IMG/VR virus record: IMGVR_UViG_3300022752_000030 | Location: 47,238 to 111,237 of that record | Source of the DNA: a virus | Length of the DNA stretch: 64,000 nt | Direction: 5' to 3' (one strand) | Shown here: piece after piece, positions 11,793 through 44,882 of the stretch | How positions within the stretch are numbered: position 1 is the stretch's first letter | Layout of the letters: every line of letters starts with the position of its first letter | Translations under genes and position numbers: made by a program | The notes under the pieces: model-generated | What the model was told of the DNA's origin: nothing | The model's input: only the letters and a program-made list of their open reading frames with translations | The model's database searches: none

Positions 11793-11848
11793 TCCGACAC
11801 CTCCTTTTTCAAAAAATAAATGTTAAAATTAAAATCAAAGAAACAATA

Positions 11849-12277: not shown

Positions 12278-12280
12278 CTT

Positions 12281-12820: not shown

Positions 12821-12842
12821 TCAAATATACCATAAAAAGTTG

Positions 12843-12871
12843 TTGACAAACGGCTTGACATATCGTATAGT
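12843..12871 (+). promoter_or_regulatory. promoter-like sequence on the plus strand (antisense)
   Basis: TTGACA (12843-12848), a 17-base spacer and TATAGT (12866-12871) on the plus strand, in the gap between gp55 and the Sm-like gene. A second TTGACA lies in the spacer (12856-12861). No plus-strand gene follows, so transcription would be antisense to the Sm-like gene and uvsW. It could also be chance. Confidence 0.35.
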
Positions 12872-12905
12872 TCGGTATGTAGCCCTGATGATATAAATCC
12901 ATATA

Positions 12906-13268
12906 TTAATGAACTGTTATTCCTTTATAAGTTTCCAGTTCTTCTACTGCTTTTAATATTTCCATCATTTCTTCATTTTCTTTAGAAGCTTTTTGTTCTA
13001 AGAACTCATTCATTTTTTCTACTGTATTCAAATAATATTCTTCAAACGATTCATTAGGATCGTACATACAAAGTACATCTTCCATTTTAACAACAACATG
13101 ATTTGTTTTCATTAACGATAATGGAAGCCATTGATTCATAATCAGATTGCCGTTTCTCACTTCAAATACCATTGGATTTTTTATTTCCAACATGTTTTCG
13201 TATAAAAAATAAAAACAAATAACATCAAGCCCATCTTTAAATCTTACTATCTTAATGTTGTTTTCCAT
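12906..13268 (-). CDS. conserved hypothetical protein, possible Sm-like fold
   Basis: A 120-residue acidic protein. The first 75 residues alternate short beta strands (IKIVRFKDGLDVICFYF, LEIKNPMVFEV, MNQWLPLSLM, NHVVVKMEDVLCMYDP), like an Sm/LSm-type barrel as seen in small proteins next to uvsW in other T4-like phages. The last ~45 residues form a charged helix (NTVEKMNEFLEQKASKENEEM). It overlaps the uvsW stop by 17 bases, so the two are likely co-expressed. RNA or DNA binding is a guess from fold only. Confidence 0.55.
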   Translation of the reverse strand: MENNIKIVRFKDGLDVICFYFLYENMLEIKNPMVFEVRNGNLIMNQWLPLSLMKTNHVVVKMEDVLCMYDPNESFEEYYLNTVEKMNEFLEQKASKENEEMMEILKAVEELETYKGITVH

Positions 13269-14745: not shown

Positions 14746-14890
14746 TTAAACTTTTCTTTATCAATTCACTTATTTTCTTTTTATAATCAGGATTTTGCCA
14801 GTTTTTTTTTATTTTTTCTGATCTTTTTTTTGATCCTTGTTTTTGTTTTTCGGTCCTTTCAACACCTTTAAGTAAAGATTTAGGACTAAT
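14738..14890 (-). pseudogene. C-terminal remnant of a homing-endonuclease-like gene
   Basis: Between uvsY and uvsW one minus-strand frame is open for about 50 codons without an ATG, GTG or TTG. It reads ISPKSLLKGVERTEKQKQ, then GSKKRSEKIKKNWQNPDYK and KKISELIKKSLNE. Lys/Ser-rich helices with KIKKNWQNPDY look like the NUMOD3-type DNA-binding tail of phage homing endonucleases. It ends at TAA overlapping the uvsW start (ATGAATAA). I infer a decayed mobile gene; the short length leaves room for doubt. Confidence 0.4.
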
Positions 14891-14897
14891 TGCTAAG

Positions 14898-15332
14898 TTA
14901 CATACCTCCTATAAATTTTTCATAATCAATAAATGACCTGAGTTGCCATGTTCTTTGTTTCAATTCAGACATAATAGATTCAATTACAGAAATTACTTCT
15001 TCGTGATATATTTTTTTCTCAAGTAATTTGATTAAATCTTTATCTGCTTCTAAGTATGTATTGATATCGGATTTCAAAGCAAATTGAAATTGTTCCCATC
15101 CGTATTCATCAAGTTCTTCTTGGGACATTTTACCTGTGTAATATTCCCATTTAATTTTTCTGATGCGTAGATAATCAAAATGTGCTTTCTTTGAAGCAAT
15201 TTTGTGTTTCGTGAGTATACCCAAATATTTACTGTGATAAGTGGGTATTTTTAAAAGTTCTTTGCTTGGTTCGGTTTGATCGATAACCGAATCAGATTCC
15301 CACATTTTTAAAATTTGTTCAAGTGTTTCCAT
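14898..15332 (-). CDS. uvsY: UvsY recombination mediator
   Basis: UvsY helps load the UvsX recombinase onto gp32-covered single-stranded DNA. The 144-residue protein has the UvsY helical core: EQILKMWESDSVIDQTEPSKE, HSKYLGILTKHKIASKKAHF, a short YYTGKMSQEELDEYGWEQ segment, DINTYLEADKDLIKL and a C-terminal LKQRTWQLRSFIDYEKF. Length equals the T4 protein to within a few residues, and the uvsY-uvsW neighbourhood is as in T4. It is headed by the promoter at 15360-15388. The ribosome site is weak. Confidence 0.9.
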   Translation of the reverse strand: METLEQILKMWESDSVIDQTEPSKELLKIPTYHSKYLGILTKHKIASKKAHFDYLRIRKIKWEYYTGKMSQEELDEYGWEQFQFALKSDINTYLEADKDLIKLLEKKIYHEEVISVIESIMSELKQRTWQLRSFIDYEKFIGGM

Positions 15333-28591: not shown

Positions 28592-29368
28592 TTAGTTCAA
28601 GAAGAATTCTAGTGGAGCACCATAATTCTTTTCCATTTCAGCTTCTAATCTTTCAATTTCATTGACCGCTTCTTGATAGATTTTATCACCATTTAAAGTA
28701 ACACCACCTGGAAGTTGCATACCAGCAAACTTCTTTAGGTTATTACCCCAAGTTCTTTTGATTAATTCTGTGGCATATTCTTTTAACCAACGATCATTCC
28801 AAACTTTTGAATAAACATCGGGATTAATAACCGCATAACATTCTGCAATTACTACTGTTCCTGCTGGTGCTTCTGATTGACCCCAAGCCCAATCAATATA
28901 CAGTCTTTGCATATGTCGTTGAAATCGTATAGGAACTTCACCCGTAAACATTAATTCTAAAGAACGTAAATGTTGTTGTGTTAACGTGTAGTTGATATAT
29001 GATGCAGACGTAAAATCATACAATTCGTTTAATCTAAGTTGATATCTTAAATCAAACATATTAACTGTTGACTGTGAATCTGAGATTGGAAATATACGAG
29101 TAACACCAACAATTTCCATTGCATTGTTGGCTTCATCTTTAGATTCACTCAAGTCAAGATACTTATTTGTTATATCTTGTTGTTGAACTGCTTTGATGTA
29201 ATATACTTTTTGTAGACCATCAAAATGGTAATCTTGCCAGTATTGCAAAGCATCGTCAATACGATCTTCTATTTGATCATCATCAACGTTAATTTCAATA
29301 ACTGGAAAACCTAGTCTTCTTAAACAATAGTCTTTAAAAGTATATCTGTCGGTAATTGGATTTGCCAT
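28592..29368 (-). CDS. 13: neck protein gp13
   Basis: Portal-side neck ring protein. TFKDYCLRRLGFPVIEINVDDD, DRIDDALQYWQDYHFDG, QQHLRSLELMFTGEVPIRFQRH and YIDWAWGQ are conserved gp13 segments, with a C-terminal WLKEYATELIKRTWGNNLKKF and QLPGGVTLNG as in the connector fold. The 258-residue length is close to the family. A perfect late octamer lies upstream. Confidence 0.94.
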   Translation of the reverse strand: MANPITDRYTFKDYCLRRLGFPVIEINVDDDQIEDRIDDALQYWQDYHFDGLQKVYYIKAVQQQDITNKYLDLSESKDEANNAMEIVGVTRIFPISDSQSTVNMFDLRYQLRLNELYDFTSASYINYTLTQQHLRSLELMFTGEVPIRFQRHMQRLYIDWAWGQSEAPAGTVVIAECYAVINPDVYSKVWNDRWLKEYATELIKRTWGNNLKKFAGMQLPGGVTLNGDKIYQEAVNEIERLEAEMEKNYGAPLEFFLN

Positions 29369-29396: not shown

Positions 29397-29404
29397 TATT
29401 TATA
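29397..29404 (-). promoter_or_regulatory. late promoter (TATAAATA) for the neck/terminase genes
   Basis: A perfect octamer on the minus strand across the end of the glycosyltransferase-methyltransferase gene, 28 bases before the gp13 ATG; it should drive gp13-gp14-gp15-gp16-gp17. Confidence 0.7.
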
Positions 29405-30659
29405 TTCTCAATTGTCCGGGTAGTCTAGGCATGCCGTCTTTAATTGCAACTAACCATGCGGATGTAACACAAACATTTAAATTTTTCATCCATTCGTTTG
29501 GAAAATACGTTTCTTTTCTGTATTCTTGAAATCTAATTGTTTTGTTATCTATAAAATTTGCTAGATATGCATCTGTGTAATACAGAAAACTATTTTCGTT
29601 CCAGTAACTTACATGTGTTGGATCTTGAAAAGCGCCACGACCATCTGTACTAGGAACCTCAATAAATGTCCAACCACCTGGTGCCAAAACACGATGTATC
29701 TCAGACATTATTTTTGTTTTATCTGTTAAATGTTCCAAAATATGACTTGCATTTAATACACCAACAGAATTGTCAGGTAAAGGAATTCCTTTATTTAAAT
29801 CGTATACAATATCAGCATCAGGTCGTAAATCAACAGAAATGTAATTTGGATATGGATTCAAACCACCGCCAATATCTACCTTTAAAAGATTTCTATCGAG
29901 TGCATCTTTTTCTGCCAATTCTCTTGCATATTGATTAAACAATTCTTTTGTTTTTATTTGAATTGCTTCATTTCTGGCTATGAATGTGTTGTCTCCAGTA
30001 ATTCTGTAAAGATAAAGAACTTTTGGTATTCTGACCATTTTTGTTTTTAAATAAGTTCGAATACACAATTCGTGATCATCACAAATAGAAAGTTCTACAT
30101 TATGGCCACCCAACTCTTTATATACAGATGTTCTCCATGATCTCACGTGATCTGGTGCCCACCAAATATATCCTAAACTATGACTGGTGGGCTCAAAACT
30201 ATTCATTGCAATAAGTTTTTTTCCTTTCCATTCAAAATCTCTGTAAGTCCATCCATATTCTGATCCGTAAGGAATAAAATTATCTTCCATGTGCAACATT
30301 GCATCATCACTATAAACAAAACCAACATCTGGATTTTGATAGGCTTTATACAATTCTTCTAAACAATCCGGTGTGATAATGTCGTCATGATCCAATTCGA
30401 CAAGAACATCTCCTGTTCCACTATTAAAGGCCGCATTTTTAACTGCACCGACATTTGTATTTTTTTCTTTTGCACAAATGATTACAACACGGTTATCATT
30501 TTTAATTTTTTCTGGTATGTGTTGCGGTGTGCATTTGTTGTTTAGATAAAGAATCCATTCCCAATTCTCATAGGTTTGATTACAAATACTTTCGTATAAT
30601 TCTACTAAAAAAGGAATGTTTTCTGGACTGTGTTCTGGAGTTATTAAACTAAATTTCAT
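29400..30659 (-). CDS. glycosyltransferase family 2 - methyltransferase fusion
   Basis: Two enzymes in one 419-residue chain. Residues 1-~220 are a GT2 domain: FSLITPEHSPENIPFL, SICNQTYENWEWILYLNN, a DHDD metal motif in LVELDHDDIITPDCL, and a late acid ICDDHELCIR. Residues ~255-400 are a class I SAM methyltransferase: LLKVDIGGGLNPYP (motif I), ISVDLRP (motif II acid), GVLNASHILEHL and VLAPGGWTFIEVP. The fused design suggests adding and then methylating a sugar on one target. It is the last gene of the fibre-modification series that begins with three collagen-like fibres, so those fibres are the favoured but unproved acceptor. Confidence 0.8.
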   Translation of the reverse strand: MKFSLITPEHSPENIPFLVELYESICNQTYENWEWILYLNNKCTPQHIPEKIKNDNRVVIICAKEKNTNVGAVKNAAFNSGTGDVLVELDHDDIITPDCLEELYKAYQNPDVGFVYSDDAMLHMEDNFIPYGSEYGWTYRDFEWKGKKLIAMNSFEPTSHSLGYIWWAPDHVRSWRTSVYKELGGHNVELSICDDHELCIRTYLKTKMVRIPKVLYLYRITGDNTFIARNEAIQIKTKELFNQYARELAEKDALDRNLLKVDIGGGLNPYPNYISVDLRPDADIVYDLNKGIPLPDNSVGVLNASHILEHLTDKTKIMSEIHRVLAPGGWTFIEVPSTDGRGAFQDPTHVSYWNENSFLYYTDAYLANFIDNKTIRFQEYRKETYFPNEWMKNLNVCVTSAWLVAIKDGMPRLPGQLRI

Positions 30660-30661
30660 AA

Positions 30662-32383
30662 TTAATCAAAGAAAAATAAATGTGTTAATCTTCCGTCTTC
30701 TATTCCTTGACCAAAATAAGGTCCGGCCGAATGTATGCATCGTGCATCCATAATGACGAGTCTATTGTATATATTTGCTGCTGAATCCGTCACATCAAAT
30801 TTTGTGCTGTCATAGAAACCTCCAGCAAAAGCACCGGACGAATCATTATCCGTTGAATGTCTTGTGCCGTTAAGTTTTGATTGATGTAATCTGGTACCAC
30901 TTTCTAAAGGCGCATTTGGAGTTAAATAAATCATTGCGGCCCATTTTTGTAAATCGTAGTGATAAACTTGTGGATCTTCTGCTGTTGTTATTTGAAAACA
31001 ACCATTATAATCATGATTTTCAAAATTGAAAATTTCTTCACCAATAATTTTTTCAAAAGCTTCTTTGAGTCCTTTGGGTCTATATGGTACAACCGAACGT
31101 AATCCTTTGTACCAACGAATGTCTGATTTATATTCAACATTCAGTGCAAATTCTCTTACTTCGTCCGGATTTTGATAAAAATTATCTACGATAAAAAATC
31201 TTTTATTTGTGTTGGTGTTGATAAAGAAAGGTAAAGAATTTTTGTTTTCTTCTTCTACTTTTTGTTTTGCTAACTCATGCAATTTCTGAACTCTGCCTGT
31301 AGGACTATCATGATATAATGACGTATCAATCATCACGACAAACCTAGGAAATACATTTGTTCTTTCTGGTTGCATCATTCTTGTGGTGCAACTCAACATA
31401 CTTTTGTAATCACCTAAATTGTTATATATTTGAGCCAAAGCAAAAAGGTGATCGTTTCTTTCTGGAGCAAATTTTTCAGAAAGATTATAAGTGTTTATCG
31501 CATTGTTTACATCACCAATAAAGTTATAACATTCTCCTGCAAAAAATAATGCCATGTAACACATTTCATCAACTTCATTTTCGCCAATTTGTACTGGAAA
31601 TTTAGTAGATTGTTTGTGTCTTACAAATTCTTCAAAGTAATATATCGATCTTTTTGCGTATTCTTTTTTTTGCGTTTCACCTAATGGAAATGAACTTGAT
31701 TGGTATGCGTCCGTATAACTTTTACCAATGTACCAAAAATGATACAAGTCAGTAGTAAATGATTTTTCTTTGATCATTTTTTCTTCAAGAATCAAAGCGT
31801 CACTAATAAATTTTACAGGATTTGACCAACTCTGACCCTCATTGTATCCAACTTGTCTAAATTTTGGTGACAAATCGATTCTTTCAAAGTTTTCACCAAT
31901 ACCTTCAATATCACAATAAACTGTTTCGTGACAAGTATCGTGATTGAATCTCCAGGGAAGATTTGCGTTCCACATCCAAGCTCTATGATAAATGCATGTA
32001 CCACTTACTGCTGGTATGTGAAAAGCTTGTGTGTTTTTATTTTCTAGTGGTGACCAGTCGAAATCGTCATCAATTTCTAAAACTTCATCACAATCCATTT
32101 TTAAAATCCAATCGCAACCGTGATCTGTTTTTTGGCAGTATTGAATCAAGTGGTCACGATTCCATCCGAAACCAACCCAACCTTCTTCTACATCATACAA
32201 TTCACCTGAAAGTTTATTGTTGATTAAAAAATCTTTGACTATTTGGTCTGTACCATCAGTTGATCCATTATTCTGTAATACATAATAATCAACATATGGT
32301 AAACAAGAATCTAACATTCTTTTGATAACCGATGCTTCATTTTTAAACATTGTTATCATTACAATTTTACAATTTTTCTTCAT
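30662..32383 (-). CDS. glycosyltransferase family 2 - 2OG-Fe(II) oxygenase fusion
   Basis: A 573-residue chain in three parts. An N-terminal GT2-like domain (IVMITMFKNEASVIKRML, ADxD-like LKMDCDEVLEI) occupies ~1-230; a helical TPR-like middle (YMALFFAGECYNFIGDVNNA, LFALAQIYNNLGDY) spans ~275-345. The C-terminal ~170 residues (FFIVDNFYQNPDEVREFAL onward) match DUF6445-type 2OG oxygenases, with a complete facial triad: HYD in QVYHYDLQKW, a distal His in ARCIHSAGPY and the 2OG-binding Arg in GRLTHLFFF. Hydroxylation followed by glycosylation by one polypeptide resembles the collagen lysyl-hydroxylase/glycosyltransferase logic. It overlaps the following 2OG gene start by four bases. Confidence 0.8.
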   Translation of the reverse strand: MKKNCKIVMITMFKNEASVIKRMLDSCLPYVDYYVLQNNGSTDGTDQIVKDFLINNKLSGELYDVEEGWVGFGWNRDHLIQYCQKTDHGCDWILKMDCDEVLEIDDDFDWSPLENKNTQAFHIPAVSGTCIYHRAWMWNANLPWRFNHDTCHETVYCDIEGIGENFERIDLSPKFRQVGYNEGQSWSNPVKFISDALILEEKMIKEKSFTTDLYHFWYIGKSYTDAYQSSSFPLGETQKKEYAKRSIYYFEEFVRHKQSTKFPVQIGENEVDEMCYMALFFAGECYNFIGDVNNAINTYNLSEKFAPERNDHLFALAQIYNNLGDYKSMLSCTTRMMQPERTNVFPRFVVMIDTSLYHDSPTGRVQKLHELAKQKVEEENKNSLPFFINTNTNKRFFIVDNFYQNPDEVREFALNVEYKSDIRWYKGLRSVVPYRPKGLKEAFEKIIGEEIFNFENHDYNGCFQITTAEDPQVYHYDLQKWAAMIYLTPNAPLESGTRLHQSKLNGTRHSTDNDSSGAFAGGFYDSTKFDVTDSAANIYNRLVIMDARCIHSAGPYFGQGIEDGRLTHLFFFD

Positions 32384-33090
32384 AATGTTCTCTGTTGTAT
32401 AAATTTTAAAATTTCAGGATCATTTTTTTGATCTTCAGTTGGAGCATATAATGCTCTATTTCTAGTATCTATAACACCTCCAGGTTCAACCATATAGTAC
32501 ATTGCAATACTTTTTCTATAAACTCCTTCAGGACATTTAATAGGATCATTAAATCCGTGCCATGAATTTTGTGAAGTGTCAAATAACAAAGCACGATTAA
32601 ATTTATTTTCAATCGTTATTATTTTTTCTTTTGGTAAATTTGTGGTACTATCGTGTGACCAAAATTCAAGATTGCCTCCCCAATTGGTATTCCAATCTGG
32701 TGTCAGGTAAAAAATTAAATTGAATTTTCTTAGTAGATTTAATTTTGGATGCATCGAATAATCAAGATGCACATTTAGTTTACTGTCTTTACCCTGAATG
32801 TGCCAACCAGAACCGTGAAGTCCTAAATCTGGATATACTTTATTTGTACCTGTTATATCTTGAATTTTTTTTATAAATTCCGATGAATTTAAATATTGAA
32901 AAAATTGATATGTTTTTGGTGGAAAAAAATACCAATTATTACTTGCTTTTTTGATTTCAAGTGGATTGTTGTAAACAAACCAATTAGGTGAATTATAATC
33001 TATAAATTCTTCTGATAATTGTTTTGCGTGATCGTGTTCTAAAAAATTATCAATCACATAATATTTGAAAGGTGAATCACCAACAATCAT
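32380..33090 (-). CDS. 2OG-Fe(II) dioxygenase (prolyl-hydroxylase superfamily)
   Basis: A 236-residue non-haem iron oxygenase. The double-stranded beta-helix residues are visible: HLDYS (H and D ligands), distal His in NSWHGF and the 2OG-anchoring Arg in YRKSIAMYY. KLNLLRKFNLIFYLTPDWNTNWGG and LEFWSH are typical for phage and SAM-linked prolyl-hydroxylase-like enzymes. An in-frame GTG lies two codons upstream, but ATG at 33090 overlaps the stop of the preceding gene as ATGA, which favours this start. The substrate is unknown; neighbouring collagen-like fibres are the obvious candidates. Confidence 0.85.
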   Translation of the reverse strand: MIVGDSPFKYYVIDNFLEHDHAKQLSEEFIDYNSPNWFVYNNPLEIKKASNNWYFFPPKTYQFFQYLNSSEFIKKIQDITGTNKVYPDLGLHGSGWHIQGKDSKLNVHLDYSMHPKLNLLRKFNLIFYLTPDWNTNWGGNLEFWSHDSTTNLPKEKIITIENKFNRALLFDTSQNSWHGFNDPIKCPEGVYRKSIAMYYMVEPGGVIDTRNRALYAPTEDQKNDPEILKFIQQRTL

Positions 33091-33662
33091 TTCCACTTAG
33101 GACCTTCAAACCATGCAGCAATACTATATCTGGTTCCTTTTGTTACCGGATATGCTCTGTGTCTTAACATTGAGGGAAAGAAAATGATTGAGCCTTGCTC
33201 CTTTGTTTCTTTTGAATCCAAAGGAGTGCCAGCATCTGTAATTTCGAAATTGCCACCTTCGTAATCTTTTGGATCAGAAAGTTGAATTATACAAGATAGT
33301 TTTCTATGATATAATGGATCATTATTCATCCAAAAAACGTCATGATGTTCTTTATATTCACCGAAATAACTACTATCATATTCAGCCAATTGAACAAAAT
33401 TTAAATGTGTGATGTGTATATTAAAGAAATCTTTATTCGCTTGTATACCTGTTTTCCACAACAAATCAAAAAGGTAGGTGAATCTCCAGTCTGAAGAATT
33501 GATAAATTTTACTTTACTCTTTCTTATACTGGAGTCCACTCTACCATTATCATTTAATCCAACAACAGCATCTTGTGTAGGTATTGCATTTGCATCACGG
33601 ATAATTTTTTCACAAGTCGCTTTATCAATATACGATTTAAAATAACACCACTCACCATTCAT
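33087..33662 (-). CDS. 2OG-Fe(II) dioxygenase (PKHD-type hydroxylase)
   Basis: A 191-residue hydroxylase of the PKHD/prolyl 4-hydroxylase type. EYKEHHDVFW gives the HxD pair, FPSMLRHRAYPV the distal His and TRYSIAAWFEG the 2OG-binding Arg; LSCIIQLSDPKDYEGGNFEI is the conserved beta-helix centre. The frame can be read from a TTG two codons earlier, but the ATG has AGGAG seven bases upstream. It sits 19 bases after the first collagen-like gene (33681-34766) in the transcription direction. Confidence 0.88.
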   Translation of the reverse strand: MNGEWCYFKSYIDKATCEKIIRDANAIPTQDAVVGLNDNGRVDSSIRKSKVKFINSSDWRFTYLFDLLWKTGIQANKDFFNIHITHLNFVQLAEYDSSYFGEYKEHHDVFWMNNDPLYHRKLSCIIQLSDPKDYEGGNFEITDAGTPLDSKETKEQGSIIFFPSMLRHRAYPVTKGTRYSIAAWFEGPKWK

Positions 33663-33680
33663 AAACAAACTCCTAAAAGA

Positions 33681-34766
33681 TTATAATTTAGATTTTATAT
33701 ATTCAATCTGTGATTTTTGTTCTTTTAATGCTTGTACTAATAATGGAACAATTTTTTCATACATAACAGTCAAATATTTTTCACCTGATTTACTATTTCC
33801 ATATTTATCAGTGTCAAAAGGAGCAATTGCGGTTGCTTCAGGTAAAACAGATTCAACTTCTTGTGCAATTAAACCAATTTGTGGGCCGTCAATAGTAACA
33901 CCAAGCTCTTTAGCTTGTTCTGTAAATTCATAATAAACGCCATTTAATTGTTGAATTTTTTCTAGAGAATTTTCAATAACACCAGAAATATCTTTCAATC
34001 TTTTATCTGAATAATTCGCTACAATATTTCCTGTAGCTCGGACACTACCAGTTGGACCTGCTACGGTATTTACACCCAATGCAGCAACTTGAGTTACTGC
34101 ACCGGAAGAACCACCTGTCGGACCTGTTGGACCTGTTGGACCTGTTGGTCCAGTTGGACCTGTTGGACCACTTGTTCCTGTTGGACCTGTTGGTCCTTGA
34201 ACGCCTTGAAAACCTTGTAAACCTGTCGCAGCTGCAGGACCTGTAGGACCTTGAGCACCTGGTACACCAGTTGGTCCAGTAGAACCTGTTGCACCAGTAG
34301 AACCTTGAGCACCTTGTCTACCTTGGAAACCTGTAGCACCTTGAGTACCTGCTGCACCTTGAGCACCTGGTACACCAGTTGGTCCAGTAGAACCTGTTGC
34401 GCCAGTAGAACCTTGAGCACCTTGAAAACCTTGAGCACCCTGAACACCAGGAACTCCAATAGAACCTTGAACACCTGTTGGTCCTGTTGGTCCTTGAACC
34501 CCTTGTAAACCCTGAGCGCCTTGAGCACCTTGAAAACCTTGAGCTCCTTGAACACCAGAAACGCCTGTTGCACCTTGAGCGCCTGGTACACCAGTTGGTC
34601 CTTGAGTACCTGTAGCACCTTGAACGCCCTGAGCACCTTGTGAGCCCGCTAAACCTTGTGGTCCTTTAATGCCGGATTGTGGTCCAATCCAATTACCATT
34701 AGAGTCTAAAACATCTGTTGAACCAACAGTTAGTCCGTTTTTAACGATGAAATTGCTTGTTGCCAT
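33681..34766 (-). CDS. collagen-like fibre protein with S74 chaperone (copy 1)
   Basis: A 361-residue fibre. Residues 1-~33 are a conserved tip or baseplate anchor ([19 protein letters not shown]...NWIGPQSG). About 34-220 are Gly-X-Y triplets, mostly GPT, GAQ, GVQ and GFQ, ending in an uninterrupted GPT run. A short spacer ([20 protein letters not shown]) leads to the intramolecular chaperone domain: Ser253 and Lys258 in SDKRLK, the self-cleaving dyad of the endosialidase-type S74 family, then [14 protein letters not shown] and [15 protein letters not shown]. Pro lies at the X position and Thr/Gln at Y. The gene starts at the stop of copy 2. Confidence 0.88.
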
Positions 34767-35860
34767 TACTTACCTCTATTTTCTAATTTTGTTAGTAACG
34801 CAGAAATTTGTTTCTGTTGTTCTTTAATTGCTTCGATCACAATAGGAACAACCTTTTCATACTGAACTGTAAGATAATTTTCTCCAGTTTTACTATTTCC
34901 ATTTGCGTCAATATCAAAAGGAGCAGGCGAAACAATTTCAGGTGCTGAAGTTTTAACTTGTTGTGCAATTAAACCCACTTGTTTACTATAATCATTGTAA
35001 CCAAAACTTTCAGCCAATTTGCTCTGAGTGTAATAAATTCCACTCCACGCTTGAATTTTTTCCAAACAATTTTCTATTGTACCTGAAATATCTTTCAATC
35101 TTTTATCGGATGCACCAGCCGTAATATTTCCTGATGCTTGAATTGTGCCTGTTGGGCCTACAGCAGCATTGATGCCTAAAGCTGAAACGTTTGGTGTTGA
35201 TGTTGTGCCTCCACTTGCTGAAGGACCTTGAGGTCCTTGTGGACCTGTTGGTCCTGTACCTCCTTGTGGACCTGTTGGTCCTGGAGAACCTTGTGGACCT
35301 GTTGATCCTGCACCACCTTGTGGTCCTCTAGGACCTTGTGCTCCAGTTCCACCAGTTGGCCCAGTTGGTCCCTGAGCACCTTGGAAACCCGAAGCACCTT
35401 GAGCACCTACTGGTGATGAACCTTGTGGACCCTGTGGACCTTGAGGTCCTGTAGCACCTTGAGCACCTGTTGCACCTTGAGCACCTTGGAAACCCGAAGC
35501 ACCTTGAGCACCTACTGGTGATGAACCTTGTGGCCCTTGAATGCCAGCAGCACCTTGAGCACCAGTTCGACCTTGTGGACCCTGAGCACCAGTAGCACCC
35601 TGCACGCCTTGAGCACCTATTGGTGATGAACCTTGTGGCCCTTGAGTACCAGCAGCACCTTGAGCACCTTGAAAACCAGTGGCACCTTGAGCGCCTTGGA
35701 AACCAGAAGCGCCTTGATCACCAGCAGAACCTTGAAAACCTGTTGGTCCTTGAACACCTTGATAAGAAGATGCTGGACCAGTCCAAGTTCCACTTGAGTT
35801 AATGACATCTGTTGATCCAACAGTTAGTCCGTTTTTAACGATGAAATTGCTTGTTGCCAT
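34766..35860 (-). CDS. collagen-like fibre protein with S74 chaperone (copy 2)
   Basis: A 364-residue paralogue of the neighbouring fibres. The N-terminal anchor is nearly identical to copy 1 ([20 protein letters not shown]). The triplet region (~34-215) is richer in GPQ, GAQ, GFQ and GSSPVGAQ units than copies 1 and 3. The spacer is [20 protein letters not shown]; the chaperone domain starts at Ser251 (SDKRLK, Lys256) with [15 protein letters not shown] and [16 protein letters not shown]. The chaperone should trimerise the fibre and then cut itself off. One base separates copies 2 and 3. Confidence 0.88.
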
Positions 35861-35861
35861 A

Positions 35862-37058
35862 TTAGTTCAAAGCTCCTTCTAATTGTTCTATTTCTTTTTG
35901 TTGTTCTTTAATCGTTTCAACAATTAGAGGTATTAATCTTTCATACTGAACTGTCAAATAAAACTCACCTGTTTTACTGCCATTTCCCTCTGTTACATCA
36001 AATGGAGCAGGCTTAACAATTTCAGGCATAACTTTTTGAACTTCTTGTGCAATCAAACCAACTTGATTTTTATAATTATTGTAACCAAAAATTTCAGCTA
36101 ACTTATTTTGTCTATAAAATACACCGTTTAATTGATATAATTTTTCACCTGCATTTTTAATTGTTTCGATATTATCTTTAAGTCTAATATCGGAATAACC
36201 TGCTATAATTGATCCTGTGGCTTGTAATGTACCTGTTGGACCTGCTGCAATATTTACACCAAGAGCGGTTGCTTGAGTACCCAATGAACCGCCAGTGCCA
36301 GATGGACCTTGTGGTCCAGTACCTCCAGGTGAACCTGTTGGGCCAGTACCTCCAGGTGATCCTGTAGGACCTTGGGCTCCTGGTACACCATTTGGTCCTG
36401 GTGAACCTGTTGGTCCTGTTGGACTCGTTGGACCTGTAGGGCCTGTACTTCCTGCTGGTCCTTGAGAACCTTGTGGTCCTGTTGGTCCTGTTGCTCCAGT
36501 CACACCGGTTGTACCAGTACCTCCTGTTGATCCTTGAACACCAGCTGGTCCTTGAACACCAGCTGGTCCTTGAGAACCTTGTGGTCCTGTTGGTCCTGTT
36601 GCTCCAGTCACACCAGTTGTACCAGTACCTCCTGTTGATCCTTGAACACCAGCTGGTCCTTGAACACCAGCTGGTCCTTGAGAACCTTGTGGTCCTGTTG
36701 GTCCTGTTGCTCCAGTTGTACCTTGAAAACCTGCTGGTCCTTGAACACCAACAGTTCCTTGAGTTCCCTGTGGACCTGTTGATCCTTGAACGCCGGCTGG
36801 TCCTGTTGGTCCTGTTGCACCAGTTGTACCTTGAAAACCTGCTGGTCCTTGAACACCAACAGTTCCTTGTGATCCTTGAGCGCCCACAGTTCCTTGTGAA
36901 CCCTGAGTGCCGGATATACCCGAAAAGCCTTGCGGACCTTGAGCGCCCGCAAGACCTTTCACGTTGGATTGTGATCCTATCCAGTTACCTGAAGAATCTA
37001 TGACGTTTGTTGTTCCAACAGTTACGCCATTTTTAACGATGAAATTTGAATTAGCCAA
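35862..37058 (-). CDS. collagen-like fibre protein with S74 chaperone (copy 3)
   Basis: A 398-residue paralogue, first in the transcription order. The start is TTG with GGGGAG eight bases upstream; an upstream in-frame stop leaves no ATG. The anchor is [18 protein letters not shown]. The triplet region (~34-250) carries a near-exact 108-base tandem duplication (36 residues). The chaperone domain starts at Ser289 (SDIRLK, Lys294), with [15 protein letters not shown] and [16 protein letters not shown]. Different triplet usage among the three copies suggests diversification after duplication. Confidence 0.87.
36454..36714 (-). repeat. 108-bp tandem repeat inside collagen copy 3
   Basis: Two full 108-base units (36454-36561 and 36562-36669) plus a partial third copy, nearly identical; the one difference I see in the central segment is a single base (caccGgtt versus caccAgtt). 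The unit encodes 12 Gly-X-Y triplets, so gain or loss of a unit keeps the frame and the triple-helix register. Confidence 0.85.
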
Positions 37059-37094: not shown

Positions 37095-39611
37095 TCAAAC
37101 AGCGATTAATGTAGCAACAATTTTCGCAGTTGTTGTACTGTTTGTTGGAGTAAACAATACATTCAAATTACCAGATGTGATTGATGCATCAAAAGTTCCT
37201 AATGATGAACCAGACTTAACTTCACCGTATTGTGCAACGTATGCTGTTGTACCATCGTGAATAATATTTAATTCAATCATATGATAAGAAGAACCACTTG
37301 TCATTTGTGCCAATATTTTTGCTGAGCGATATGTTGCTATTGCAAAAGAAAATGCTGTAACTTGTGATGTTGTAGAAGTCGTATATGATGTTGAAGTCAT
37401 ATATGAACTTGTATTGATAGTTACAGATGTATTGGATGACAATGCAGAAGCATAAATTGGGCTGTTAGATGAAATTGCACCAGTTACTACACCACCAGAT
37501 TTTGCTAAAGAATTTGTTGTTGCAGTATTAGCAGCAGCAAATGCAGAGTTAGCATAAGAACCAGCTGTTACTGCTTTGGAGTCTGCTGTAGCTGCATTAG
37601 TTGTAGCAGTATTTGCTTGAGCATATGCAGAGTTAGCATAAGAACCAGCTGTTACTGCTTTAGAATCAGCTGTATTAGCAGCAGCAAATGCTGAGTTAGC
37701 ATAAGAACCAGCTGTTACTGCTTTAGAGTCTGCTGTAGCTGCATTAGTTGTAGCAGTATTTGCTTGAGCGTATGCTGAATTTGCATAAGAACCAGCTGTT
37801 ACTGCTTTAGAATCAGCTGTATTAGCAGCAGTAAATGCAGAGTTAGCTTGAGTGAATACTACGTTAAGTTGTGGTGTTGAAGCTATGTTAACTTCCGAAC
37901 CAGTTGGTCCCATAACAAAAGTACCGTTAGTTTCATTCCAAACGACACGAACATTTGGTTGATCGCCACGAATAACTTGGAAACCAGAATATGTTCTAGA
38001 TACGCCTGAACCAGACTCACCTTTATTTAAATCGATGATGTTATCATCAACGTTTAAGTTTGTTGTGTGTACAGTAGTCGTTGTACCATTGATTGTTAAA
38101 TTACCAGTAATCGTTGCATCACCAGTAACAGTTTGATTGCCAGAAATTTGTACTGTTGGTGCAGTCAATGTAACTTGTGTATTGGAAGTAATTCTTGCTA
38201 AAGAACCTAATCCTGATGCTTCAACAATAACATCACCGTTTTGACCTGTTGTTTGAATTCTTGTTGTTGAATTTGATGTTAATGTAATATTACCTGTACC
38301 ATAAGTTTGTAATTGTATACCTTGATTTGTATTAGCGGTAAAAGTAATATTTTCAGCACTAGATCCTAAAACTGGACTACCATCAACATAAAGAGTATTT
38401 GCACCAAGGTGTAAGTCGTTTGCATAGATACTTGCAAATTTTAAAGTTGGTGATCCAATATTTGTTGTATTGCTTGTTTTTGGTAAAATATTACCATTAA
38501 CTGTAACTGTACCACCAATTGTACCACCTGATGTTACAAATGTATTTCCTACGTTAGCAGCAGCATATGCAGAGTTAGCATAAGAACCAGCTGTTACTGC
38601 TTTGGAATCAGCTGTAGCTGCATTGGTTGTTGCTGTATTAGCTTGACCATATGCAGAGTTAGCATAAGAACCAGCTGTTACTGCTTTGGAGTCTGCTGTA
38701 TTGGCTGCTGTATATGCAGAGTTAGCATAAGAACCAGCTGTTACTGCTTTGGAGTCTGCTGTATTGGCTGCTGTATATGCTGAATTTGCATAATAACCAG
38801 CTGTTACTGCTTTGGAGTCTGCTGTAGCAGCATTAGTTGTAGCGGTATTTGCTTGATCATACGCAGAATTGGCTTTTGTAAATGCTGGAGCAATCTGTGG
38901 TGCCACGTTATTAGCTGCAGCAAATGCTGAGTTTGCAACATTAAATGCTGAGTTAGCATAAGAAATTGCACCCAAATCAACATAAGTATTTCCGTTACCG
39001 TCAACGCCTGTAATATTATTTAATACTTCCAACATTGCTGGACTAATTTGTGCAACGTTTGAAGATAATGTAGAAACAGTATTTGTTAGTGAAAGAAGGT
39101 CAGTTTGATAAGCTAATGTTCCACCATTTACAGATAAACGATTGTCTGTGTTTGCAACTGTCAAACCACCAATAACAACTGTATTTGAAGCATTAACTGT
39201 ATTAACGCTTAATTTTCTTGTGCTAAAAAATACAGCTGTACCAGTAATTGCTTCTGTTAATAAGACTCTTGCTGTATTGTTATTTACAATTTCAATATTA
39301 GCAACTTGTAAATTATGATTGGCATCATATACAAAAAAACCTAGGTCAGAAGAACCTAGGTCGTGTGTTACTGTCCAGGTATTGGATGCAACACCTTGTG
39401 TGTGCAAATATGCTGATTGTGCGGTACCAATTGGTTGCCAAGTCCAATAATTGCTACCGTAATTTAATTCGGTGTAAATGTATGGCGTTCCTTGTTGTAC
39501 AATAATTGTTCTTGGTGCTGGATTTGCTGGAAAACCATTATAATCCGTTTCGAAAATTAGGCCGGCTGTTAGATTCAAGCCTCCTAAAACTCTAATTTGA
39601 TTTGATGCCAT
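37095..39611 (-). CDS. large tail fibre protein with Ala-rich heptad repeats
   Basis: An 838-residue fibre. The N-terminal ~150 residues hold a small beta module (NTWTVTHDLGSSDLGFFV ... LLTEAITGTAVFF) that recurs in two other proteins here. Two repeat arrays follow (about 215-360 and 590-710), made of heptads such as ANSAYTA-ANTADSK-AVTAGSY; between them lies a beta-rich central part with LTSNSTTRIQTTGQNG and a typical fibre domain TTVHTTNLNVDDNIIDLNKG. The C-terminal ~90 residues (STSYTTSTTSQVTAFSFAIATY ... LIAV) form a beta-sandwich tip. No S74 domain. Likely a proximal fibre or shaft. The ATG overlaps the end of the 82-codon gene by 20 bases. Confidence 0.8.
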   Translation of the reverse strand: MASNQIRVLGGLNLTAGLIFETDYNGFPANPAPRTIIVQQGTPYIYTELNYGSNYWTWQPIGTAQSAYLHTQGVASNTWTVTHDLGSSDLGFFVYDANHNLQVANIEIVNNNTARVLLTEAITGTAVFFSTRKLSVNTVNASNTVVIGGLTVANTDNRLSVNGGTLAYQTDLLSLTNTVSTLSSNVAQISPAMLEVLNNITGVDGNGNTYVDLGAISYANSAFNVANSAFAAANNVAPQIAPAFTKANSAYDQANTATTNAATADSKAVTAGYYANSAYTAANTADSKAVTAGSYANSAYTAANTADSKAVTAGSYANSAYGQANTATTNAATADSKAVTAGSYANSAYAAANVGNTFVTSGGTIGGTVTVNGNILPKTSNTTNIGSPTLKFASIYANDLHLGANTLYVDGSPVLGSSAENITFTANTNQGIQLQTYGTGNITLTSNSTTRIQTTGQNGDVIVEASGLGSLARITSNTQVTLTAPTVQISGNQTVTGDATITGNLTINGTTTTVHTTNLNVDDNIIDLNKGESGSGVSRTYSGFQVIRGDQPNVRVVWNETNGTFVMGPTGSEVNIASTPQLNVVFTQANSAFTAANTADSKAVTAGSYANSAYAQANTATTNAATADSKAVTAGSYANSAFAAANTADSKAVTAGSYANSAYAQANTATTNAATADSKAVTAGSYANSAFAAANTATTNSLAKSGGVVTGAISSNSPIYASALSSNTSVTINTSSYMTSTSYTTSTTSQVTAFSFAIATYRSAKILAQMTSGSSYHMIELNIIHDGTTAYVAQYGEVKSGSSLGTFDASITSGNLNVLFTPTNSTTTAKIVATLIAV
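37537..37860 (-). repeat. heptad-repeat coding array, distal half of the fibre gene
   Basis: Tandem near-identical DNA units encoding ANSAYAQ/ANTATTN/AATADSK/AVTAGSY. The same DNA (ATAAGAACCAGCTGTTACTG on the plus strand) recurs at 38580-38800 and in the separate gene 42567-44882. Confidence 0.85.
38566..38962 (-). repeat. heptad-repeat coding array, proximal half of the fibre gene
   Basis: Second array of 21-residue (three-heptad) and 28-residue (four-heptad) units, ending in VAPQIAPAFTKANSAYDQ. It is close in sequence to the array at 43084-43640 in the fourth S74 fibre, including VAPQIAPAFT(K/Q)ANSAY. Confidence 0.8.
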
Positions 39612-40115: not shown

Positions 40116-41786
40116 TTACAACGTAACAAACGACTCGATAGCCGCTTTGATGTTGTTTGCTTCAGTCAAGTAAACAGTCAATGTGTTTGCGGTTGTTTGT
40201 TCTACTGATACGATATCGTTGTAGAAATAACCATTAGCACGTTCGACCAAAACTGTGAATGAAACGTATGTAGAATTCAAGTTGTGGTTAATTGTGTGTG
40301 TTGTTGCGCCAACGTTTGAACCGTAAGTGAAACGGCGAGCATTGTAGTCAGAACGAATTCCACTTTCAGCTGTGTTAGCAGCTGCGAAAGCAGCATTTGC
40401 CTGTGTAAATGAAGCAGCAATACTTGTGTTCTGAGTTGTGTTAATACCGTCAAGTCTTAAAACTTCAGTATTAGCATAACCATAAGCAGCATTTGCTTGT
40501 GTAAATGAAGCAGCAATACTTGTGTTCTGAGTTGTGTTAATACCGTCAAGTCTTAAAACTTCAGTATTAGCATAACCATAAGCAGCATTTGCGTGGCCAA
40601 ATGAAGCATTTGCTTGTAAGAAAGAAGCAGCAATACTTGTATTTTGAGTTGTGTTAATACCGTCAAGTCTTAAAACTTCAGTATTAGCATAACCATAAGC
40701 AGCATTTGCTTGTGTAAATGCAGCAGCAATACTTGTGTTCTGAGTTGTGTTAATGCCGTCAATTCTAGAAACTTCATTATTAGCATATGTGTAAGCTGAA
40801 TTTGCTTGTGTAAATGCAGCAGCAATACTTGTATTTTGTTCTACATTGATGCCATCAAGTCTTAAAACTTCAGTATTAGCATAACCATAAGCAGCATTTG
40901 CTTGTGTAAATGAAGCAGCAATACTTGTGTTTTGTTCTGTATTGATGCCATCAAGTCTTAAAACTTCAGTATTGGCGTAACCGTAAGCAGCATTTGCGTG
41001 GCCAAATGAAGCATTTGCTTGTAAGAAAGAAGCAGCAATACTTGTGTTTTGTTCTACATTGATGCCATTAAGTCTTAAAACTTCAGTATTAGCATATGTG
41101 TAAGCTGAATTTGCTTGTAAGAAAGAAGCAGCAATACTTGTGTTTTGTTCTGTATTGATGCCATCAAGTCTTAAAACTTCAGTATTAGCATAACCATAAG
41201 CAGCATTTGCTTGTACGAAAGCGGCATTTGCGTACTGACCTGCACTGTTAGCAGCAGTAAATGCTGGCTGAATTTGGTCGCTTACGTTATTAGCACGCTC
41301 ATAAGCAGCATTTGCGTGACCAAATGAAGCATCAATTCTTGTATTTTGCCATACGTCAACACCACGAACTAAAGTAATTTCTGTGTTAACAGCGCTATAA
41401 ACGTTAGCGAGGTTAGAATTTACACCAGAAACTAAGTTGATAACTGTGTTTGCAAAATTAGGATCATCACCAATCGCATCAGCTAATTCTCTTAATGTAT
41501 CAAGTAATACAGGAGCAGAATTAATTAAAGCTGCAATAGAATTATCTGTATAAGAAGTTGCGCTGTTTAATGTGTCTGTAAGATCCTGATCTACAGGTAC
41601 ATATTTTACTGCAACAGCACCAGTTGCATCTAATGTACTGAACTTTAGACGTTTTTGTGTTGTGTTGTACCAAATACGACCAGCACTGACCGGTATTGGA
41701 TCAGAAGCTAAGCGCTCTACGTGTAAGTTTTCTACGAAAGCGCCATTCGCTAACGTAATTCCGTGAAATACTGGATAATTTGCCAT
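40116..41786 (-). CDS. tail fibre protein with 32-residue repeats
   Basis: A 556-residue fibre. Residues 1-~130 form a cap: FHGITLANGAFVENLHVERL and IPVSAGRIWYNTTQKRLKF, then LLDTLRELADAIGDDPNFANTV, a common phage-fibre start. From ~165 to ~470 the chain repeats a 32-residue unit (QANAAYG-YANTEVL-RLDGINT-EQNTSIA plus four) or 39 with an extra heptad (ASFGHAN). Four heptads plus four residues per unit suggests an alternating heptad/hendecad coiled coil. The C-terminal ~70 residues (TTHTINHNLNSTYVSFTVLV ... VYLTEANNIKAAIESF) are the small beta module shared with two other genes. Confidence 0.8.
   Translation of the reverse strand: MANYPVFHGITLANGAFVENLHVERLASDPIPVSAGRIWYNTTQKRLKFSTLDATGAVAVKYVPVDQDLTDTLNSATSYTDNSIAALINSAPVLLDTLRELADAIGDDPNFANTVINLVSGVNSNLANVYSAVNTEITLVRGVDVWQNTRIDASFGHANAAYERANNVSDQIQPAFTAANSAGQYANAAFVQANAAYGYANTEVLRLDGINTEQNTSIAASFLQANSAYTYANTEVLRLNGINVEQNTSIAASFLQANASFGHANAAYGYANTEVLRLDGINTEQNTSIAASFTQANAAYGYANTEVLRLDGINVEQNTSIAAAFTQANSAYTYANNEVSRIDGINTTQNTSIAAAFTQANAAYGYANTEVLRLDGINTTQNTSIAASFLQANASFGHANAAYGYANTEVLRLDGINTTQNTSIAASFTQANAAYGYANTEVLRLDGINTTQNTSIAASFTQANAAFAAANTAESGIRSDYNARRFTYGSNVGATTHTINHNLNSTYVSFTVLVERANGYFYNDIVSVEQTTANTLTVYLTEANNIKAAIESFVTL
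40384..41250 (-). repeat. tandem 96-bp repeats in the fibre gene
   Basis: At least seven units of about 96 bases, some with 21 extra, encode the 32-residue coiled-coil repeat. Adjacent units are nearly identical at the DNA level (for example around 40430 and 40530), implying recent expansion or gene conversion. Confidence 0.85.
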
Positions 41787-42566: not shown

Positions 42567-44882
42567 TTATTTATTTTTCTTTAATTCGTCTATTTGTTTT
42601 TTAAGCTCTTTAATCGATTCGATTACCAAAGGCAAAAGTCTTTCATATTGAACTGTCATATATTTTTCATCTACCGGTGCCGGAACAACAATTTCCGGCA
42701 TAACTTTTTTAACTTCCTGTGCGGAAACACCAACAGATCGTTTAATTGGATAACCTAAATCTTGTGCAACTTTGTTTGGTTCATAGTAAAAACCAGTGAG
42801 TGACAATAATTTATCCAAAGCATTATCAATAGCACCTAATCTGTTTTTTAATCTATCGTCCGAGTATCCTGATGAAATGCTATCTGTGGCGCGAATTTCT
42901 CCGGGATTACCTGAAGCAGGAGTATTCACACCTATCGAATTAAAACGAACATCACTTGAAGTTGCAACAGCTTGACCAATAGATAGTGTAAATGATGATC
43001 CTGTTCCACCACCGGAAATTCCTGTTCCGTTATTAATTGTGACGGAAGAAATTTTAGAGTTTGCAGTAGAAAACGCAGAGTTGGCATAAGAACCAGCTGT
43101 TACTGCTTTGGAGTCTGCTGTAGCAGCATTAGTTGTAGCAGTATTTGCTTGAGCGTATGCTGAGTTTGCTTGAGTAAATGCTGGAGCAATCTGTGGTGCC
43201 ACATTATTAGCAGCAGCAAATGCTGAGTTGGCTTTTGTAAATGCAGAGTTAGCGTAAGAACCAGCACTATTAGCTGATGTAAATGCAGAGTTAGCGTAAG
43301 AACTAGCTGCTGCAGCATTAGTAGTAGCGGTATTTGCTTGAGTGTAAGCAGAGTTAGCATAAGAACCAGCTGTTACTGCTTTGGAGTCTGCTGTAGCAGC
43401 ATTGGTTGTTGCTGTATTAGCTTGAGCGTATGCTGAGTTTGCTTGAGTAAATGCTGGAGCAATCTGTGGTGCCACGTTATTAGCAGCAGCAAATGCAGAG
43501 TTAGCATAAGAACTAGCTGCTGCAGCATTAGTTGTAGCAGTATTTGCTTGTGTGTATGCTGAGTTTGCATATGTTCCTGTTGTATTTTGACTAGAATATG
43601 CAGAATTAGCCCTTAAGAAGGCAGAATTAGCATAAGAACCGGCTGATGCGACAGCTGCTTGTAAAAACGTATTTGCAGCAGTAATTACATTATTTAAATT
43701 ATTTGCAACATTTGCTGTAGCTACATCTGTTGTGCTTGTCGATAATAGTGTATCATTTAAATATTCATTTGTTATTATTCTATAATAGTTGTTTGACGTT
43801 ACATTGATAATATCAAAATATTTTGATGGTTCATTCCAACGAATTATGGCATTCGCTCCAGAAGAACCTCTATTTACACCAATATAACTTAACTGTGCTG
43901 TTCCAGAACCCGCATTTATTGTAAATACATTTGAGTTGTATACAGTAGTTCCGTTAATAACAAAGTTACCACCTACACTTAATTGCCCTGTTGTTTGTAA
44001 TGTATTAAAAAAAGCAGCTGCTGAAGTTCCATTTAAAGAACTTGTGACATTAATTACCGGCGTTGTGAAAGTTACGTTTGCGGTAATGGAATTAGCTAAT
44101 ATTGAAGTTCTAGCATTGATTGAATTATTGGCTAATACATTATTTGCAATCAAATTATTTGTTACGGAAATTGTTGCTGTATTTACTGATACATTGGATT
44201 GTAATGTATTTACAAATGAATCACCCGTAACACTTAAAGTTGATGTATTTACTGATACATTGGATTGTAACACATTAACGAAACTATTACCTGTAACACT
44301 TAAAGTTGATGTATTTACTCTGGTATTTGCTTGTAATATATCAACAAAACTATTACCTGTAACACTTAAAGTTGCGGTGTTTACACTTGTATTTCCTTGT
44401 AGAATATTTGTGTATGTTGTTCCTACAATACTTGCATTTGAAGTATTTACTGTACTATTTGCTTGTAAATTTGTTGTTATTGTGTCGTTAACAATTGTGG
44501 TATTTCCACCAACAAACGCATTATTTGCAACATTTAAACCAATGTCTGATCCTAATGCATAAAGTAAACCACCAACATTGGCTTGACCTGAAGTAACTAA
44601 ACTGAGAGTTGAATTTGTTAAATAAACTTGTCCACCTACAGTAAGATTATTTTGTATTGTAGCGGAAGAACCTAAGCCTTGAACTAAAAGTTGTTTTTGT
44701 ATAACAATATTTCCATTCGCCTGTAATGAATTTTGTGTTGTTTCATTTAAATATAAAGTTCCTGAATTCTTTACGTAGTCTGCGGCCGCAAGTGAATTAT
44801 TCTCGACAATTAGAGCATCGGTCGCAACTAACCAATCACCAAAAGTGTTTGCATAACTTAATGTTGTAATTGTATTAGCCAT
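42567..44882 (-). CDS. tail fibre with S74 self-cleaving chaperone (fourth copy)
   Basis: A 771-residue fibre with no collagen repeats. The N-terminal ~390 residues are beta-structured, Asn/Thr/Val-rich, with a short internal repeat of about 20 residues (NTSTLSVTGNSFVNVLQSN). From ~395 to ~600 there are Ala heptad arrays (ANSAYTQ/ANTATTN...). The chaperone domain begins at Ser674 (SDDRLK, Lys679), with GVSAQEVKKVMPEIV and YERLLPLVIESIKELKKQI, close to the collagen-linked ones. The start overlaps the 75-aa gene by eight bases. A long or side fibre is likely. Confidence 0.82.
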   Translation of the reverse strand: MANTITTLSYANTFGDWLVATDALIVENNSLAAADYVKNSGTLYLNETTQNSLQANGNIVIQKQLLVQGLGSSATIQNNLTVGGQVYLTNSTLSLVTSGQANVGGLLYALGSDIGLNVANNAFVGGNTTIVNDTITTNLQANSTVNTSNASIVGTTYTNILQGNTSVNTATLSVTGNSFVDILQANTRVNTSTLSVTGNSFVNVLQSNVSVNTSTLSVTGDSFVNTLQSNVSVNTATISVTNNLIANNVLANNSINARTSILANSITANVTFTTPVINVTSSLNGTSAAAFFNTLQTTGQLSVGGNFVINGTTVYNSNVFTINAGSGTAQLSYIGVNRGSSGANAIIRWNEPSKYFDIINVTSNNYYRIITNEYLNDTLLSTSTTDVATANVANNLNNVITAANTFLQAAVASAGSYANSAFLRANSAYSSQNTTGTYANSAYTQANTATTNAAAASSYANSAFAAANNVAPQIAPAFTQANSAYAQANTATTNAATADSKAVTAGSYANSAYTQANTATTNAAAASSYANSAFTSANSAGSYANSAFTKANSAFAAANNVAPQIAPAFTQANSAYAQANTATTNAATADSKAVTAGSYANSAFSTANSKISSVTINNGTGISGGGTGSSFTLSIGQAVATSSDVRFNSIGVNTPASGNPGEIRATDSISSGYSDDRLKNRLGAIDNALDKLLSLTGFYYEPNKVAQDLGYPIKRSVGVSAQEVKKVMPEIVVPAPVDEKYMTVQYERLLPLVIESIKELKKQIDELKKNK
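43084..43640 (-). repeat. heptad-repeat coding array shared with another fibre gene
   Basis: DNA units nearly identical to those at 37537-37860 and 38566-38962, for example the stretch coding VAPQIAPAFTQANSAYAQ and ATADSKAVTAGSYANSA. Such shared units allow homologous exchange between fibre genes. Confidence 0.8.

Follow-up and report, generated by a model that had tools for sequence, protein, structure and literature searches.

The DNA analysed here is a 64,000-nucleotide stretch (hereafter the window) of virus record IMGVR_UViG_3300022752_000030, a 111-kb record whose terminase has its nearest relatives in T4-like Synechococcus phages, with S-CREM1 and DSL-LC02 at 55% identity. On its minus strand, three genes for collagen-like fibres with Gly-X-Y shafts and S74 domains are followed by two free 2-oxoglutarate (2OG)-Fe(II) oxygenases, here called OGa and OGb, a fusion of a family 2 glycosyltransferase (GT2) with a 2OG oxygenase, a GT2-methyltransferase fusion, and then the head-tail adaptor Ad2. 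The identical gene order recurs in many metagenome contigs, so a chance arrangement can be excluded. We consider it likely that the locus is a fibre-maturation cassette, whose enzymes modify the three fibres made alongside them.

Pfam places both Collagen (PF01391, E-values 6e-21 to 2e-30) and Peptidase_S74 (PF13884), the C-terminal intramolecular chaperone domain, above cut-off in all three fibres, as the original prediction had proposed. Fibre 1 (35862–37058, 75 Gly-X-Y triplets; PF01391 2e-30, PF13884 7e-14), which ends in a C-terminal S74 chaperone domain, starts at a TTG codon with a ribosome-binding site at 8 nt, and its N-terminus matches those of fibres 2 and 3. Fibre 2 lies at 34766–35860 (58 triplets; 6e-21 and 1e-6) and fibre 3 at 33681–34766 (62 triplets; 6e-29 and 1e-12). 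The uninterrupted triplets number 49, 21 and 59, respectively. Over the 195 triplets of the window, proline occupies the X position 59 times, and the Y position is held by glutamine (85), threonine (63), proline (9) and lysine (1) among others. The Y position had been described as rich in threonine; it is, although glutamine is the commoner residue there.

The genes are tightly packed. Ribosome-binding-site spacing favours ATG 33662 as the start of OGa and ATG 33090 as that of OGb, and with these starts the spacing consists of one 18-base gap and 4-base ATGA-type overlaps, in agreement with the earlier estimate of at most 18 bases. No GC-rich terminator was found between the cassette genes. 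A PF13640 search of the whole record returned the two free oxygenases of the cassette and none elsewhere.

The oxygenases and glycosyltransferases

OGa (33087–33668, minus strand; PF13640 3e-15) and OGb (32380–33096, minus strand; PF13640 2e-15) were aligned, like the oxygenase domain of the GT2 fusion, with 39 to 55 relatives. The catalytic residues are invariant in each: H108, D110, H170 and R180 in OGa; H110, D112, H180 and R194 in OGb; and H475, D477, H551 and R565 in the fusion, along with D97 and D99 of its GT2 DxD motif. The HxD...H...R signature reported from the first inspection is thus kept and extends across the relatives, and because these residues are invariant all three oxygenase domains look active on sequence grounds.

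The predicted structure of OGa (predicted local distance difference test, pLDDT, 93) places it in the double-stranded beta-helix 2OG class, with an HxD...H iron triad and a basic 2OG residue. The best 50 fold matches of the model in the PDB are all 2OG oxygenases, and 49 carry a prolyl hydroxylase annotation; among them are the EF-Tu hydroxylase of Pseudomonas, PHDs of Dictyostelium and humans, an algal prolyl 4-hydroxylase (P4H), and vCPH, the viral collagen hydroxylase of PBCV-1. Profile searches gave PKHD hydroxylases first, followed by prolyl hydroxylases that include BaP4H and P3H1. On the best reading OGa is a prolyl-hydroxylase-type enzyme that would act on the shaft. The nearest solved relative of OGb is OGFOD1, the prolyl hydroxylase of ribosomal protein uS12 (profile match 5e-15), and its profile matches other prolyl hydroxylases as well.

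The first fusion (30662–32383, minus strand; PF00535 3e-8, PF20043 (DUF6445) 3e-5, phrog_1644 2e-28) carries between its two catalytic parts a tetratricopeptide repeat (TPR) domain, detected by profile at residues about 252–336. The original prediction listed the enzymes of the cassette correctly but missed this domain. The model has a pLDDT of 91 and a predicted template modelling score (pTM) of 0.66, and with the pTM only at that level the placement of the domains is uncertain. Its fold matches are the SunS/ThuS peptide glycosyltransferases and, at low TM-score, AspH (TPR plus 2OG) and human LH3 (glycosyltransferase plus 2OG). The GT2 part gives a profile match to the flagellin glycosyltransferase GmaR, and the layout of a glycosyltransferase domain followed by a TPR domain is that of GmaR and FlmG; an enzyme of this kind would attach sugar to Ser or Thr residues of its protein substrate. 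S-glycosylation as in the SunS fold was considered and rejected, as two of the three fibres are free of cysteine and the third has one. The second fusion (29400–30659, minus strand; PF00535 2e-15) joins a GT2 domain, nearest to GalT1 in the PDB (8e-6), to a class I S-adenosylmethionine (SAM) methyltransferase (PF08241, Methyltransf_11, 1.5e-8). The PHROG names attached to two of the 2OG domains look misleading: 'minor coat protein' (phrog_1644) at 30662–32383 and 'DNA endonuclease V' (phrog_274) at 32380–33096.

In the order of steps that we infer, modification would take place in the cytoplasm of the host, while the fibres trimerise or beforehand. OGa, and probably OGb, would hydroxylate proline of the Gly-X-Y shaft; the GT2-TPR-2OG protein would grip the fibre through its TPR domain, add a sugar and hydroxylate a residue; and the GT2-methyltransferase would extend the glycan, methylate it, or both. 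Candidate benefits are shaft stability, receptor binding or protection.

Association with collagen-like fibres

We asked how closely these enzymes track collagen-like fibres. The sample drawn with OGa as query held 80 contigs, from which redundancy was then removed; full context was taken to mean at least 4 kb of sequence to either side of OGa, and 27 of the 31 non-redundant OGa genes that have it lie within 6 kb of a collagen open reading frame (ORF). Lineages were defined as clusters at 60% identity. OGa lineages only 30%–55% identical to the window copy stand directly downstream of collagen-S74 genes (L056, L063, L074, L083, L189, L233 and L293; L numbers designate the sequences compared), and the collagen ORF that adjoins the OGa of L072 gave no S74 domain. 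The partners of OGa vary: GT4-type enzymes in L074 and L083, a GT25-PLOD protein in L233, L293 and phage S-PRM1, and GT2 pairs in the lineage of the window. Hence OGa is the constant part and the sugar enzymes the variable part.

A second sample was independent of the enzymes, being picked by the S74 domain alone; it was non-redundant, downstream sequence was present, and the next five genes were inspected. A 2OG or PLOD-type gene follows 4 of the 10 collagen-shafted S74 fibres and none of the 48 collagen-free ones (p = 0.0005). When 50 records of this sample were searched with Pfam, L272 gave a single weak 2OG match (22 bits) immediately after an S74 gene that lacks collagen; the models used for the count had missed it. 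For OGa, the original prediction thus withstands the refuting condition set with it, that the enzymes are equally common in phages lacking collagen-like fibres: OGa follows collagen across diverged lineages.

Several observations weigh against so simple an association. OGa occurs without nearby collagen in L069, L077, L123, L066 and L076, and S-CAM8 has OGa in a whole genome without collagen. The sole GTDB contig with OGa in a search of bacterial genomes, from Aquariibacter albus, has it standing alone. Tree-controlled independent-pairs tests on the S74 tree were not significant and underpowered, with 2 and 7 supported pairs, and the association may thus be due in part to common descent. The bacterial homologue (L387:8001–8573, 51% identity) is chromosomal and lies next to dxs; a separate contig of that genome holds a GPT-rich repeat protein.

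One might go further and take the association as inherited synteny within one phage clade, uninformative on function. About 89 OGa genes do fall in one 60% cluster, and the tree-controlled tests did not reach significance. We regard this as highly improbable: the diverged OGa lineages have other contexts and partners and still have a collagen neighbour, L132 and L135 are rearranged yet hold the same cassette parts, and a collagen fibre with Lys at Y occurs together with a collagen-modifying enzyme homologue also in roseophage CRP-6. It is likewise very unlikely that these are general auxiliary genes which sit by chance in a hypervariable fibre region and serve small-molecule chemistry, the repair or modification of nucleic acids, or 2OG consumption and nitrogen signalling. 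Such roles have been proposed for cyanophage 2OG oxygenases (PMC3037559), and some cyanophages, S-CAM8 among them, have several 2OG genes and lack collagen; the OGa lineage, however, tracks collagen and is closest in fold to protein prolyl hydroxylases, and the composition of the shafts covaries with the enzymes.

The GT2-2OG and GT2-methyltransferase pair is tied to the fibre more loosely than OGa, since L133 and L138, contigs of 54 and 62 kb, carry it but have neither OGa nor collagen, and this is a further point against the proposed cassette. To this extent the claim that the cassette modifies its neighbouring fibres is better founded for OGa, with its collagen neighbours and covarying shafts, than for the glycosyltransferases. 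Conceivably the hydroxylases alone act on the fibres, while the two fusions target host lipopolysaccharide or another virion protein and became neighbours by operon drift. The pair in L133 adjoins a ribonucleotide-reductase-like gene, and lipopolysaccharide modification is the published guess for related pelagimyophage glycosyltransferases (PMC7029224). We find this division of labour doubtful, because in most loci the pair is tightly packed between the fibres and Ad2, and because the GT2-TPR layout is like that of protein glycosyltransferases and not of lipopolysaccharide enzymes. The triplet GFQ is also enriched in the cassette class of the window, in 83% of shafts versus 17% of others, a lineage-confounded comparison; it may be a recognition motif or reflect mere ancestry.

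Two variant loci are recorded here. In L214, L219 and L220 (near 10001–15000) the GT2-2OG protein is split into two genes (371 and 212 amino acids) beside a GT2-methyltransferase; the contigs have many collagen-like matches and no OGa nearby. In Synechococcus phage DSL-LC02 (L009:337–10567), collagen-like fibres whose shafts are Thr-rich at X and almost proline-free lie beside a divergent cassette, which consists of a gene annotated as beta-mannosyltransferase that has no match in Pfam, an FkbM methyltransferase-radical SAM-SPASM fusion, and a GT2-2OG-type oxygenase.

Shaft composition and the marine sister cassette

Enzyme set and shaft sequence covary. Proline occupies X in 32% of triplets of OGa-linked shafts versus 14% in unlinked phage shafts (p = 6e-8), and Y in 7.2% versus 2.1% (p = 4e-6), in per-gene tests; with OGa-lineage means the X difference holds (p = 7e-4) but that at Y does not (p = 0.12). 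In a wider set, shafts with less than 10% proline make up 5.6% of the OGa-linked and 44% of the others. Threonine had been put forward as the sugar acceptor. This is plausible by analogy with BclA, and threonine is frequent at Y in the window, but a per-gene comparison shows no difference in Thr at Y between shafts with and without a linked OGa (p = 0.65), so threonine is not singled out, and hydroxyproline or other residues are possible acceptors. In lineage means, Thr at Y is higher with OGa (p = 0.015).

A second enzyme covaries with a second residue. Marine phages S-PRM1, S-CAM9 and S-8S53/55/56, and many contigs, hold a sister cassette in which a collagen-S74 fibre is accompanied by a protein of 610–620 amino acids, often by OGa, and often by an FkbM-type sugar methyltransferase, of which L338 and L327 are examples. 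In profile searches of the PDB, residues 4–181 of this protein match human procollagen galactosyltransferase 1 (1e-29), residues 215–417 the glucosyltransferase domain of LH3 (2e-47) and mimivirus R699 (8e-40), and residues 429–603 the lysyl hydroxylase domain, both that of mimivirus L230 (7e-15) and that of LH3. Such COLGALT-PLOD-glycosyltransferase-lysyl hydroxylase chains lie beside Lys-at-Y collagen fibres at L005:10549–12396, L293:1267–3126, L233:9995–11857 and L388:6926–8695. All 26 non-redundant shafts linked to the GT25-PLOD protein have Lys at Y (14%–77% of triplets), whereas only 7 of the 135 not linked to it reach 3% (Fisher p = 6e-24, uncorrected for ancestry); in three of the seven (L310, L369 and L386) the enzyme is encoded at a greater distance on the same contig. 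At X, lysine is practically missing from every shaft class. The cultured Roseobacter phage CRP-6 (45-kb genome) has a GAKGQKGE-repeat fibre with Lys at 26 of 99 Y positions, two genes before its collagen-modifying enzyme homologue.

OGa content also varies within the sister group: shafts nearly without X-proline have no downstream OGa (L319, L362 twice, L367, L380, and L327, where OGa is upstream), and most proline-rich shafts have OGa. That two enzymes covary with two residues, proline and lysine, is the strongest reason to think that the cassettes act on the shaft.

This does not fix the residue that OGa and OGb modify, and here too there are points on the other side. X-Pro-Gly, with proline at Y, is the preferred site of animal P4H, and such prolines are rare in the window shafts (9 of 195). 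Collagen P4H uses a lysine as ligand of the 2OG C5-carboxylate, whereas OGa has at this position an invariant arginine, Arg180, of the PHD/PKHD type, and in this departs from the animal-type collagen prolyl 4-hydroxylases. In L333, L336 and L346, exceptions in the sister group, the shafts are proline-rich though OGa is missing, and L253 combines OGa with little proline. As fold likeness does not fix the substrate residue, the enzymes might instead hydroxylate another shaft residue, such as Thr, Gln or Asn, or one outside the shaft, in the S74 or the N-terminal domain. We think this unlikely, since proline is the residue that rises most in frequency with OGa and the nearest solved structures of known substrate are mostly prolyl hydroxylases. 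Hydroxylation of shaft proline by OGa, and probably OGb, remains our preferred reading.

The parallel first drawn for the window was with animal collagen, which is hydroxylated and then glycosylated; the hydroxylysine-galactose-glucose pathway of animals belongs to the sister cassettes. Pfam found GT2 domains only in the window, and no GT25 or GT_PLOD domain. As the GT25-PLOD enzyme is lacking and Lys stands at Y in 1 of 195 triplets, the window represents a different route, and hydroxylysine chemistry was ruled out there, lysine being nearly absent from the triplets. A broader proposal, which we hold only tentatively, is that aquatic phages run at least two complete collagen pathways: a marine one in which a single protein makes hydroxylysine-Gal-Glc, and that of the window, in which the GT2-TPR-2OG protein acts on the shaft both as hydroxylase and as glycosyltransferase (possibly on hydroxyproline) and its partner methylates the sugar. 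Phages may then have been donors or recipients of the animal lysine-modifying enzymes.

Outside the cassette, Ad2 (28592–29368, minus strand; phrog_211 2e-42) marks one boundary. At the other side, a fibre protein without collagen repeats (37095–39611, minus strand; PHROG tail-fibre matches) is probably a member of the same fibre operon. This protein and that at 40116–41786 contain long near-exact repeats, of ANSAYxxANTA and NTEVLRLDGINT types. A fourth S74-type fibre (42567–44882; 771 amino acids) has no collagen repeats.

Comparison with known systems

A 2012 paper stated that the prolyl hydroxylases required for collagen are absent from bacteria and viruses (PMC3368898). A 2022 review reports the Bacillus anthracis P4H and the mimivirus collagen enzymes, and treats phage collagens as stretches of about 18 residues (PMC8968730). 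Our searches of the open-access literature found no description of phage collagen hydroxylation, cyanophage procollagen enzymes or a phage lysyl hydroxylase. A conserved cassette of long collagen shafts, prolyl-hydroxylase-like enzymes and glycosyltransferases would overturn both the 2012 and the 2022 views. Some aquatic-phage 2OG oxygenases that are so far unexplained would gain a function, and the origin of the animal PLOD and COLGALT enzymes becomes a question in its turn. Compact enzymes of this kind, made in a bacterial host, could possibly be used for modified recombinant collagen. The sister version is directly testable, since the cultured phages S-PRM1, S-CAM9 and CRP-6 carry it.

With animal collagen maturation (C-P4H, P3H1, LH3/PLOD3, COLGALT1) the window shares a Gly-X-Y substrate, 2OG hydroxylases with glycosyltransferases, and a glycosyltransferase-2OG fusion, and the marine sister cassettes hold direct homologues of COLGALT1, of the PLOD glycosyltransferase and of the lysyl hydroxylase domain. 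The window differs in having GT2 and not GT25/PLOD enzymes, almost no shaft lysine, a TPR linker, a methyltransferase, and phage tail fibres as the presumed substrate. Virus-encoded collagen-modifying 2OG enzymes and glycosyltransferases are also found in mimivirus (L230 and R699, with viral collagens) and PBCV-1, whose vCPH (5c5t) the OGa fold matches; those are giant viruses of eukaryotes, whereas here we deal with phages, S74 fibres and other glycosyltransferase families.

The GT2-TPR-2OG protein resembles GmaR/FlmG and SunS/ThuS, cytoplasmic glycosyltransferases with a TPR or helical module whose substrate is a self-assembling protein or peptide, but its own substrate would be a collagen shaft with hardly any cysteine. 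To our knowledge none of these four enzymes carries a 2OG domain. Glycosyltransferases that act on flagellin in the cytoplasm are known in Listeria and Caulobacter (PMC9638930, PMC7591256). These enzymes have TPR modules.

BclA, a collagen-like glycoprotein of Bacillus, is a spore surface protein, and BaP4H is only a distant relative of OGa. We know of no single gene cassette that unites the two. The likeness lies in GPT-rich triplets, with a prolyl hydroxylase and glycosylation in one organism (PMC8968730). Finally, the recombinant protein studied with the E. coli prophage proteins EPclA and EPclB was reported as unglycosylated and unhydroxylated, in which it differs from the fibres proposed here; what these systems share is a collagen triple helix in phage tail proteins, which in the window is predicted from sequence (PMC3368898).

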